The position numbers and the translations under genes are program-made. The notes beneath the pieces were generated by a model. The model was not told the DNA's origin and did not search any database. It saw only the letters and a program-made list of their open reading frames with translations. Positions 50,719 to 54,419 of a DNA stretch of 64,000 bases are shown here, one piece after another. The stretch comes from Sphingobacterium deserti (lineage in GTDB: Bacteria > Bacteroidota > Bacteroidia > Sphingobacteriales > Sphingobacteriaceae): positions 62,001 to 126,000 of the forward strand of contig NZ_JJMU01000029.1 in the NCBI RefSeq assembly GCF_000757725.1. The letters are read 5' to 3'. Every line of letters starts with the position of its first letter. Position 1 is the stretch's first letter.

Positions 50719-51423
50719 TTATCTGCTGGCCGCGCCCAGCTTTTTAAACAACTCGACTTTATAGCGTCCGCCAATTGGAATCTCAGGTAATTTACCTTTC
50801 ATTTTGATGGTATTTCCAATGACATGTTCCGCATAATCTAAATTGATGATGTAAGATTTGTGCACGCGAGCAAACCTTCGCATACCCTTTAAGGTGTCTT
50901 CCAAGTCGATAAGTTTGCGCCAAACATAGTATTCCCGTTTAATTGTCCAGATATGTACGTAATCTTTATCTGCCTGGATATAGCAGATATCGTCATAAGA
51001 GGTAATAAAACTGTACTGCTTATCTTTAATCACCATATAGTCAGAAGCTAAATTTTCTGCTTTTCGAGACCTCAGGAGGTTTTTGGCTTTGTTTACCGTT
51101 TTTAATAAACGCTCAATCCCGAAAGGCTTGAGGATGTAATCCAATACATTCAGTTCATAACACGCTACTGCATAAGTAGGGTCTGTCGTTACAAAGGCAA
51201 AAAATGGAGGGTTTTGTAAACTTTTAAACAAGCTCAAGCCATTGATGTCAGGCATTTGTATGGCACAAAATACTAGATCCACCTCGTTAGTACTTAGGAT
51301 AGTGATGGCAGCGAGTGCAGTATCGAATACCGCAACAATTTCTACATCAGCCATCTTTTTCAATGTCGATACTACATGTTTCTGTGTATGTATATCATTC
51401 TCAACTACAATGCATTTAATCAT
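50719..51423 (-). CDS. LytTR-family response regulator lacking the phospho-acceptor Asp
   Basis: A 234-residue protein with a receiver domain (about 1-118) and a LytTR DNA-binding domain (about 132-232; DDICYIQADKDYVHIWT, FARVHKSYIINLDYAEHV). In the receiver the usual DLVFLDIQMP reads DLVFCAIQMP, so the phosphorylated Asp is Ala54 (codon GCC); the acidic pair is Glu8-Asn9 instead of two Asp, while Lys99 (LKPF) is kept. It therefore cannot be phosphorylated in the usual way. No sensor kinase gene is next to it. It is convergent with a namZ-like gene and faces the AT-rich relic region. Confidence 0.9.
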   Translation of the reverse strand: MIKCIVVENDIHTQKHVVSTLKKMADVEIVAVFDTALAAITILSTNEVDLVFCAIQMPDINGLSLFKSLQNPPFFAFVTTDPTYAVACYELNVLDYILKPFGIERLLKTVNKAKNLLRSRKAENLASDYMVIKDKQYSFITSYDDICYIQADKDYVHIWTIKREYYVWRKLIDLEDTLKGMRRFARVHKSYIINLDYAEHVIGNTIKMKGKLPEIPIGGRYKVELFKKLGAASR

Positions 51424-52028
51424 GGCATGTTCTTATTTTAGAGTGATTTCCTATCACACAACATTTTTCGTTTACTATGTAGAATAGTAGATTCTGTATC
51501 AATTGGCCCAATTACAATATAGCACCATAAAACTTACATCATCAAGACAGCTCCATTTCTCCATCTATATCCCAAACTATTTAAAGGATTTGTTTTATGT
51601 TCTTATTGTCAATGTTTACTAATATAAATAATAAAATATTACAAAATATGTTTTTAATAAAAATTCTATTTTTTGGAGAGAAAAAGAGATGGTGCTTGTG
51701 TGATCAAGTGGTTACTATTTGTTATAATTTGTTCCTTGTATTGGTTCTTATTTTCTTAAAATATTGATTAATTGAGGCTGTTAGGTTGATTCAAGGCTGT
51801 GTAGCTATTCACGTCTGTCGGCTATGGTTTGAACTCGGGCTTGAGTGCGTTATACTTCAGCAGGAATATCGGGTCAATTTTGCCTTTTAAACGATTAATA
51901 TAGGAGTTCGTCGAAAATATTTCATAGGAATCTTACTGAATGGTAAATTAACCAACGCTTAAATTACCGAATTTTTTATTGTAAGCTACTTTAATCTTCT
52001 TTTTTGTCAAATTTAAAACCACAGTATT
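51424..52028. other. 605-bp AT-rich region, possible relic
   Basis: Strongly AT-rich stretch between the leftward LytTR gene and the rightward truncated secreted-protein gene. Apart from a short coding-like frame on the minus strand (51822-51932) nothing was recognised. Composition differs from flanking housekeeping genes and continues into the next 1.5 kb, which suggests acquired DNA in decay. Confidence 0.5.
51822..51932 (-). pseudogene. Possible C-terminal gene fragment
   Basis: Between a stop at 51933 and a stop at 51822 the minus strand reads 36 residues that look protein-like: SYINRLKGKIDPIFLLKY, then NALKPEFKP and stop. There is no start codon. The balanced composition suggests the 3' end of a lost gene, but a chance frame is possible and no family was recognised. 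Confidence 0.2.
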
Positions 52029-52421
52029 ATGAAAATGAAGCTATCTATATGTTTTATCAGTGTATTCCTTGTTATGCAGACTTGCGTTATGGCTAGATCA
52101 AATGGAACGGCTGATTCTGTCTTGAATAACATTCAGGAAAGAGTTTACAATGCCTTTGTATCTGATGTTTCACAAAAAACGGAGAAACTGCAAGAGCTCA
52201 AGGGTCAACTGGGAAATCTGGATAAAGGAAAACAAAGCGCAATTTTAGTTTATTGGAGAGCGTATCTACAGTTCTATACGACCATACTTTATTCACAAAG
52301 TGGTAAAAAGTCGAACGCGAAGGAGGAGGTAGATTTTGGTATAGAGTTGCTAAGCAGCCTTCCTAATAAATCAAGTGAAGATTTCGCACTTCTCGCAAGG
52401 CTGGAAAGTAATCTGGTATGA
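52029..52421 (+). CDS. Secreted protein, probably C-terminally truncated TPR-like family member
   Basis: A 130-residue protein with a signal peptide (about 1-22, ending VMA). The mature part is helical: VLNNIQERVYNAFVSDVSQK, SAILVYWRAYLQFYTTILYS and SSEDFALLARLESNLV before the stop. From memory it resembles the N-terminal half of a ~220-230-residue TPR-like protein found in Bacteroidota near small double-glycine-leader peptides and TonB receptors, in which the segment corresponding to SSEDFALLARLES continues into a second helical half. Here the second half is missing, so the gene is probably cut by a deletion. A start at ATG 52029 or 52035 is possible. Confidence 0.6.
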   Translation: MKMKLSICFISVFLVMQTCVMARSNGTADSVLNNIQERVYNAFVSDVSQKTEKLQELKGQLGNLDKGKQSAILVYWRAYLQFYTTILYSQSGKKSNAKEEVDFGIELLSSLPNKSSEDFALLARLESNLV

Positions 52422-52549
52422 ATTTTGAAAAATTTTTTCTAGCGCAGAAAAAAGCCCGTGTCGGTTCGAAACGCACTTGGGCAAAAGAGAGCTCACAAAT
52501 TCCTCTCTTGTTAATTAACGAATTTGATCCGGGTGTGGGCGGATTGTAA
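52418..52549 (+). CDS. Possible 43-residue small protein overlapping the previous stop
   Basis: An ATG at 52418 overlaps the stop of the preceding gene (ATGA), an arrangement typical of translational coupling. The product is basic at first (FLAQKKARVGSKRTW) and ends LLLINEFDPGVGGL. It has no signal peptide and no family I recognise. It may be a real small protein, or part of a gene fused here by the deletion that truncated its neighbour. Low confidence. Confidence 0.3.
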   Translation: MNFEKFFLAQKKARVGSKRTWAKESSQIPLLLINEFDPGVGGL

Positions 52550-52577
52550 GATAAAACTATTTTAAATTTTTAAAAAA

Positions 52578-52817
52578 ATGAAAAAAATTTCATTGAAAAA
52601 TCTTGGTAAGGATCAGATTCTGACCAGTGACGAGTTAAAGCTTATTATGGGTGGTACTATCGATAGTGAAGATGGATATGAGGATGGATATAGTACATTT
52701 AAATGCAAATGCTATAATAGTGGTATAGTTTGGGAAGCCAAATATAAAAATACATCAGATATGGTTAATTATATCGATGGATCTTGTTCGAACGGTGGGG
52801 AATGTAATGCTGTTTAA
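52578..52817 (+). CDS. Double-glycine-leader peptide, RiPP-type natural product precursor
   Basis: A 79-residue peptide of the Bacteroidota natural-product-precursor type (TIGR04149-like). The leader MKKISLKNLGKDQILTSDEL then KLIMGG ends in Gly25-Gly26, a cleavage signal for peptidase-containing ABC exporters. The 53-residue core is acidic at its start (DSEDGYEDGYS) and has four cysteines: Cys43, Cys45, Cys70 and Cys76. It could be disulfide-bonded or modified, for example by a radical-SAM enzyme. No maturase, peptidase or exporter gene lies in the window. The neighbours are a truncated secreted protein and a broken TonB receptor, so the locus looks decayed. A hairpin terminator follows. Confidence 0.75.
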   Translation: MKKISLKNLGKDQILTSDELKLIMGGTIDSEDGYEDGYSTFKCKCYNSGIVWEAKYKNTSDMVNYIDGSCSNGGECNAV

Positions 52818-52827
52818 TTATTTATAC

Positions 52828-52858
52828 GAGGCTGTCTCAAAATGGCAGCCTCTTTTTT
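52828..52858 (+). terminator. Terminator after the leader-peptide gene
   Basis: GAGGCTG (52828-52834) pairs with CAGCCTC (52846-52852), followed by six Ts. GAGGCTGTCTCAAAAT is also a sequence often found at insertion-sequence ends and terminators in Bacteroidota, so an IS scar is possible. Confidence 0.6.
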
Positions 52859-52867
52859 ATGAATTAG

Positions 52868-53497
52868 CAGGCGTTAGATTACCAATACAAAAAGGCTGAT
52901 CTTTTGATCAAAGGTGCATTATACTATAAAAATGAAACTGGAGATCGTCAACAGGATCAATCGTTCGAGTTATTATCGAATAGAGTCCAGACATTTGGTG
53001 CAGAGTTCTATTTTGAAAAGGTCTTTTACAATTACATCAAATACTCTTTCTCCAACTCATTTATCGATCAAAAAGCCTTTATAGGGGATGGTCAATATAA
53101 TGGTACTAGTCATTTAAAGTATTTCGTCAAGACATTCGTACAATATAACAATCCCTCCCTGTTTTCCCTTTCGCTCGTGTATTTCGCTCGGCCTGGAACC
53201 TTCATTAATACGGTGGATAGGGCAGAGTATAATAGCGATTTAGATCTTTATTACCCAATTTTTAGTTCTGATTATTTTAATCAACAGTTGCCTGCTTATA
53301 ACAGGTTTGATGTATCTTTCTCGAAATTCTTTCGTGGGAAAAAGCTTTCGGTTGCAACATTCGTTTCGTTGAATAACGTATTCAATACGAGTAATGCAAG
53401 AAGGCCTATTTATAGTCGTGACTACAGCGCGGTCAGCTACGATTCCTATCAGTTTAGGACTTTATATTTCGGCTGCGTATGGTATTTAAAGAACTGA
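52868..53497 (+). pseudogene. 5'-truncated TonB-dependent receptor (C-terminal beta barrel only)
   Basis: The frame is open from 52868 (after a stop at 52865) to 53497 and reads as the last ~209 residues of a TonB-dependent receptor barrel: YQYKKADLLIKGALYYKNET, RVQTFGAEFYFEK, NPSLFSLSLVYFARPGTFIN, LPAYNRFDVSFSKFF and RTLYFGCVWYLKN at the end. Receptor-like sequence continues upstream of any possible start (TTG at 52904), so this is not a small gene but the remains of one of about 800-900 residues. Signal peptide, regulatory domain and plug are gone. It probably was the receptor partner of the neighbouring leader-peptide gene. Confidence 0.8.
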
Positions 53498-53521
53498 GCC
53501 GGCTGATGACGTTTTAAAAGG

Positions 53522-53562
53522 CAAACCCCACAAGATGGCTTGTTGCCGACTTGTGGGGTTTG
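53522..53562. terminator. Bidirectional terminator between the receptor remnant and the EEP-fold enzyme gene
   Basis: CAAACCCCACAAG (53522-53534) and its exact complement (53550-53562) form a 13-bp stem with a 15-nt loop, between convergent coding sequences. Confidence 0.85.
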
Positions 53563-53579
53563 ATAATGCTCATCGGAAC

Positions 53580-54419
53580 TTATTTCAGTTCCAGAACCGT
53601 CAAGATCGGAAAGTGATCCGATGGAAACTTACCAAAATAGGTGTCGGTCAGTATGCCCCACTTGATCGCGTCGAAATGCTTGCTCATAAATACGTGGTCG
53701 ATGACCCTATTGTTTTTAGGCTTGCGGAAAGCATTTGCCGAAGAATTATTTTGATAAGGATGGCTTACCTTGGCGTGCACATCAACTATGCTGCCTGAGT
53801 CTGCAATCCTTTTGTACCAAGACGATTCGCGGTCGCCATTGAAATCACCGGTGAGTAATACCGGTGCGTCTCCTGCGATCTTTTTGATCTGTGCAAGTAT
53901 CAGTTTGGCACTTTCTTCCCGGGCAACAACGCCTTGATGATCAAAATGTACATTAAACACATACAAAGATTTACCGTTGCGCACATCGTTAAGCTGTACC
54001 CAAGAGCAGATACGGTTGCAGCAGGTTGCATCCCAGCCCAAGCCCGGCTTTGATGGGTTTTCAGCCAACCAAAAGTCACCGCTCTTCAGCAAGGTAAACC
54101 GATCTTTTTTATAAAATATCGCGGAATGTTCACCGGCTTCCTTACCGTCATCGCGGCCCTTGCCATAGCGGCTGTATTCGGGCAGTTTGCGAGCAATATC
54201 ATCCAGTTGATTTTTAAAACCTTCTTGTGTCCCGAGGATATCGAAGTCGTGAAACCGAATCAGGTTGGCGACTACAGGTGCACGATCAACCCACAAGTTT
54301 CCGGTATCGGCGGGATTATCGTACCGAATATTGTAACTTCCTAATGTGATCTGCTGCGCTTGAAGTCCAAAGCTGATGATGAATAGTAGGGCTACGGCGC
54401 CTAGTTTTTTCAAGTTCAT
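53580..54419 (-). CDS. Endonuclease/exonuclease/phosphatase-family enzyme, secreted
   Basis: A 279-residue exported enzyme: signal peptide about 1-21 (ending LQAQ). The DNase-I-like fold is clear: TLGSYNIRYDNPAD with the conserved Asn, FDILGTQEG with the metal-binding Glu, LYVFNVHFDHQGVVAREES, the catalytic VLLTGDFNGDRES (Asp and Asn), and the C-terminal KFPSDHFPIL with the Asp-His pair. All catalytic residues are present, so it should cleave a phosphodiester or phosphomonoester outside the cytosol; sphingomyelinase-, inositol-phosphatase- or nuclease-like activity cannot be told apart. It is the last gene of the SusC-SusD operon (32-bp gap). Confidence 0.93.
   Translation of the reverse strand: MNLKKLGAVALLFIISFGLQAQQITLGSYNIRYDNPADTGNLWVDRAPVVANLIRFHDFDILGTQEGFKNQLDDIARKLPEYSRYGKGRDDGKEAGEHSAIFYKKDRFTLLKSGDFWLAENPSKPGLGWDATCCNRICSWVQLNDVRNGKSLYVFNVHFDHQGVVAREESAKLILAQIKKIAGDAPVLLTGDFNGDRESSWYKRIADSGSIVDVHAKVSHPYQNNSSANAFRKPKNNRVIDHVFMSKHFDAIKWGILTDTYFGKFPSDHFPILTVLELK

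Follow-up and report, generated by a model that had tools for sequence, protein, structure and literature searches.

Bacteroidetocin loci encode a four-cysteine peptide with a double-glycine (GG) leader of 15-16 aa, an exporter of the C39 type, usually a thiol oxidoreductase, and a transmembrane protein (PMC6671954). Two other kinds of peptide system are relevant to the locus described here: the TIGR04149 precursors of Bacteroidota, with a leader of the form MKKISLKNL...ELK.I.GG and a small cysteine-bearing core, and the azole-peptide (TOMM) clusters of the SagB/SagC/SagD type. We analyzed a 64-kb stretch of the Sphingobacterium deserti genome (hereafter, the window), in which a GG-leader peptide gene lies between the remains of two genes, one for a TPR-like exported protein and one for a TonB-dependent receptor.

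The window peptide resembles the TIGR04149 precursors in both leader and core, and has a GG leader and a four-cysteine core of a size similar to that of bacteroidetocins (PMC6671954). Unlike in bacteroidetocins, its leader comprises 26 aa rather than 15-16, and its core is acidic (-5.6) rather than basic; because of these differences in leader length and charge, we do not class it as a bacteroidetocin. Nor does the window locus have a linked exporter, oxidoreductase or five-TM gene, although the host, similarly to bacteroidetocin producers, carries a C39-type ABC exporter and a thiol oxidoreductase in another locus (C53). In contrast to the TIGR04149 family, the host lacks a radical-SAM maturase, while the sister loci have VKOR/C39-like/Trx and TlpA genes instead; unlike these sister loci, the window peptide has no partner genes beside it. 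TOMM clusters are linked to the window in a different way, as four of them (G007, G207, G147, and G583) end in intact homologues of its TPR and receptor fragments. Still, the host has no YcaO gene, and the GG-leader peptide is not a TOMM precursor.

A preliminary description of this DNA took the peptide, the TPR-like protein and the receptor for one decaying locus with a shared function. Most probably, two unrelated things meet here instead: a TPR-receptor module and a segment with an orphan peptide gene that replaced part of it. The three features themselves were correctly placed in that description; they and the elements around them are as follows.

50719-51423, minus strand: LytTR-type response regulator, 234 aa (Pfam Response_reg and LytTR)
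52029-52410, plus strand: 5' half of the gene of a TPR-like exported protein, residues 1-127 of ~253 (by the G077 orthologue)
52411-52871, no strand: foreign segment of 461 bp carrying the peptide gene and its terminator (by comparison with G077)
52417-52424, plus strand: left copy of an 8-bp direct repeat, TATGAATT; second copy at 52858-52865
52578-52817, plus strand: GG-leader peptide gene, 79 aa (TIGR04149 match and full-length relatives)
52828-52858, plus strand: intrinsic terminator of the peptide gene (hairpin of -16.9 kcal/mol, z = -5.2, followed by a T-run)
52872-53497, plus strand: 3' third of the gene of a TonB-dependent receptor, residues 511-717 of 718 (by the G077 orthologue)

Two truncated genes and the segment between them

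G077, which belongs to the same genus, has an intact gene for a 253-aa TPR protein situated 17 bp upstream of the gene for a 718-aa receptor with CarbopepD_reg_2, Plug and barrel domains, with nothing between them. The window TPR fragment is 54% identical to residues 1-127 of the G077 protein, and its ORF continues past 52410 to 52421 in unrelated DNA, yielding 130 aa in all. The receptor fragment (~207 residues, 70% identity) has no signal sequence, and its frame is still open. The intact orthologues thus demonstrate that both genes are truncated, as had been supposed.

Nucleotide homology to the G077 locus ends at 52410 and restarts at 52872; between these points there are ~1928 bp in G077 versus 461 bp of unrelated DNA in the window. 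The junctions come from a draft assembly of 75 contigs, both being inside one 151-kb contig. The 461-bp segment has no homology to the G077 locus and no second copy in the host genome. As the two genes are each cut on the side that borders this single foreign segment, one replacement event is the best reading. In this reading, the site once held an intact two-gene module, in which the gene of a CarboxypepD_reg-type TonB-dependent receptor came after that of an exported TPR-like protein. The segment, with its orphan TIGR04149-like gene and terminator, would have replaced ~1.9 kb of this module, so that the TPR gene lost its 3' half and the receptor gene its 5' 70%. Such losses would leave the module dead. 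With the peptide gene sitting inside the unit it destroyed, the three neighbors would have come together by accident, through a single replacement, and would not form one system. Points against this explanation include that the left 160 bp of the segment have no recognized relative, that no recombinase or transposase is present at the junctions, and that the assembly is a draft.

The 8-bp repeat is a possible micro-homology at the junctions, but given the A+T content here, it could be a chance occurrence. We also considered the terminator as a transposon end and rejected this, as its first 15 bases appear a single time in the window and are absent from all six loci checked. Insertion at a tRNA gene was dismissed, as the window has none, and no RNA element in 51400-53600 matched Rfam at E <= 1.

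The LytTR regulator is 52% identical over 230 aa to a LytTR protein adjoining the intact pair (L045, G077). Compared with L045:6526-10270, the LytTR, TPR and receptor genes at 50719-52421 of the window form a circular permutation in different surroundings.

The TPR-receptor pair in other genomes

The pair occurs without the GG-leader peptide in six genomes (G077, G483, G007, G207, G147, and G583), and both window fragments, as well as the order of TPR gene and then receptor gene, agree with all of them. The TPR gene and the receptor gene form a genuine, conserved two-gene module. TPR proteins of ~200 aa that occur throughout the class are distant paralogues and were not counted as the module; each of the three inspected also adjoins a CarboxypepD_reg-like receptor. 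An Aureibacter plasmid carries a TPR relative on its own, which was likewise set aside.

These data bear directly on the single-system reading, in which the peptide, TPR protein and receptor cooperated, and the TPR and receptor genes lost parts at a later time, with the peptide remaining in place. The three features are indeed close in order and spacing and share one strand, and related TPR-receptor pairs do occur in peptide (TOMM) clusters. On the other hand, a locus with the peptide, a full TPR protein and a full receptor was sought among relatives and not found in any of those sampled, neither among the six TPR-receptor pairs nor among ~30 GG-leader loci, and the loci of all sampled relatives of the peptide lack both this TPR protein and this receptor. 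Moreover, a mere 17 bp separate the TPR and receptor genes in G077, and both truncations point inward at the edges of a single foreign segment. We consider a former three-part system highly improbable. Of the earlier proposal, the decay and the truncations stand; as far as sampled, the peptide does not belong with the TPR protein and the receptor.

In four of the six genomes (G007, G207, G147, and G583), the pair closes a YcaO azole-peptide (TOMM) cluster. All four clusters encode a SagD-type YcaO protein. SagB dehydrogenase was matched in G007, G147 and G583 (the clusters tested), and a SagC-like protein in G147 and, below the cut-off, in G007. Candidate TOMM precursors are located upstream in G007, G207 and G583, share the leader motif LTI..VENR, and have tails that include CTSTCTTCTCSCCC and CCCSCCCSCC; none was recognized in the G147 cluster. 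Each of the YcaO/SagB clusters (L046:2595-12298, L068:822-10525, L067:2013-10273, and L104:7014-14674) closes with one TPR protein, or two in G007 and G207, and a TonB receptor; three of the four have candidate precursors with very cysteine-rich tails. Hence, the receptor does keep company with peptides, as had been proposed, although not with the one supposed.

The pair probably serves uptake, sensing or self-protection for the azole product. We tentatively suggest that the TPR protein and the CarboxypepD_reg receptor may form a dedicated outer-membrane module of an uncharacterized polyazole RiPP family of Bacteroidota (precursor tails including CTCSCCC and CCCSCCCSCC), in which case pairs outside the clusters might be listeners, scavengers or liabilities, broken once the pathway is gone.

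No YcaO gene is present in the genomes of the host, G077 or G012, and in two of these three genomes that have the pair without YcaO (the host, in the window, and G012) the receptor is broken. The G012 pair has its receptor split over two contig ends (L047:9351-11255 and L048:3-2630) beside IS66-like ORFs, apparently through an IS insertion. The insertion in the window might have been selected for inactivating a receptor through which a toxic azole peptide or a phage enters, with the peptide gene no more than the means. The fact that the two receptors are broken differently, by the 461-bp segment in one case and beside IS66-like ORFs in the other, would fit such selection. However, this amounts to three cases only, an intact orphan pair has been retained in G077, and the same pattern follows from simple neutral decay of a receptor that is not used; we regard selected inactivation as unlikely.

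The peptide gene and its possible export in trans

The leader of the peptide (residues 1-26, MKKISLKNLGKDQILTSDELKLIMGG) ends in a double glycine at residue 26, and the predicted mature core comprises 53 aa with four cysteines and is acidic (computed charge of about -5.6 at pH 7, pI 4.2). G25 and G26 are invariant when the peptide is aligned with eight of its sister peptides. The match to NCBIfam TIGR04149 scored 20.0 bits from the ATG of the peptide and 24.4 bits in a genome-wide scan (25.2 bits with frame neighbors), against a curated cut-off of 25. A relative in G347, which belongs to another genus of the family, covers residues 1-77 (E 7.7e-7), and the window core resembles cores of the G347 type more than shuffled sequences do (p = 0.003, 5000 shuffles). 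Given the TIGR04149 match near the cut-off, the end-to-end relatives, the core comparison, and the terminator, which is situated at the right end of the foreign segment, the gene is real and not a chance ORF. In addition, among ORFs of the 64-kb window, a loose leader pattern was fitted by this peptide alone. No relatives were found on plasmids or viral contigs; a 43-bp Campylobacter plasmid match was taken as chance, as it falls in an A/T-rich stretch at the gene start.

As the preliminary description had stated for the vicinity of the peptide, no maturation enzyme or exporter is encoded, and this holds for the entire 64 kb: neither a C39 exporter nor a VKOR-type oxidoreductase was matched in the window, including its larger ORFs. 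Radical-SAM maturation was rejected since the host genome lacks the TIGR04148 partner, its best match to this maturase scoring 17 bits against a cut-off of 300; the radical-SAM label attached to TIGR04149 thus finds no support here.

The closest relatives of the peptide, in G347, G034 and Pedobacter sp. KBW06, adjoin a VKOR/C39-like/thioredoxin gene, as do the two other loci of the host. In G347, there are five such peptide genes in a row (L066:9652-11439), with near-identical leaders and varied cores, beside the VKOR/C39-like/Trx gene. Several of the relative and host loci also carry TlpA-like thioredoxins, GT25-like proteins or a C39 ABC exporter. In ~30 other stretches matching TIGR04149, a VKOR-type partner was seen within the compared stretch in about half, and the TPR protein or receptor of the window in none; as most of these stretches span ~3 kb and some matches are weak, the comparison addresses close linkage alone and would miss distant linkage. 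The preliminary description had proposed a search for linked radical-SAM or C39 ABC genes in relatives; a C39 exporter is often near them.

Two further TIGR04149-like loci, C2:213600 and C53:87317, were found in the host genome, which was examined through searches and individual stretches. The C53 locus, which is not adjacent to the window peptide, encodes a C39 ABC exporter (Peptidase_C39 and ABC), HlyD, TlpA-type proteins, and a fusion of VKOR and thioredoxin that also has a C39-like domain. Between this exporter and those near GG-leader genes in G034 and G003, identity is 76-83%. The GG-leader peptide loci of the host at L051:4504-16492 and L050:8483-14001 have GT25-like or other large proteins beside thiol-redox genes; two L050 neighbors of 276 and 507 aa had no Pfam family match.

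The shared leader and the exporter and VKOR genes of the C53 locus make cleavage, export and oxidation in trans plausible. If expressed, the peptide would be cut behind its Gly-Gly site, leave the cell through the C39 ABC exporter of this locus and be oxidized to disulfides by the VKOR-thioredoxin partner encoded there, which would yield a small secreted disulfide-bonded peptide of the bacteriocin type. This agrees with the earlier suggestion that an orphan peptide could be served in trans, the exporter and oxidative-folding genes being present with the sister peptides elsewhere in the genome. The leader of 26 residues, versus 28 in the sister peptides, might count against recognition by the C53 exporter. 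As a first guess, by analogy with bacteroidetocins, the role of the peptide may be antibacterial.

It is also possible, if somewhat doubtful, that the peptide gene itself is dead, being a fragment carried with a passing segment and neither expressed nor exported. Its neighbors are pseudogenes, there are no maturation or export genes within 64 kb, and there is no second copy or close relative by which selection could be measured. Still, the frame, leader, GG site, four cysteines and terminator are all intact, and the genes for the exporter and the oxidase are present in trans.

Significance of the locus

The replacement reading removes a tempting but false three-gene peptide-receptor system, and the locus provides an example of how an orphan precursor gene comes to lie inside another unit. 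In this respect, the finding is mostly ordinary. At the same time, the comparison uncovered a conserved association between azole-peptide clusters and the pair of TPR protein and TonB receptor; the literature searched on TonB receptors with YcaO clusters in Bacteroidetes yielded nothing relevant and no description of it. The link of the receptor pair to azole clusters is the part worth following since, if confirmed, it would point to an outer-membrane partner of azole-peptide products.
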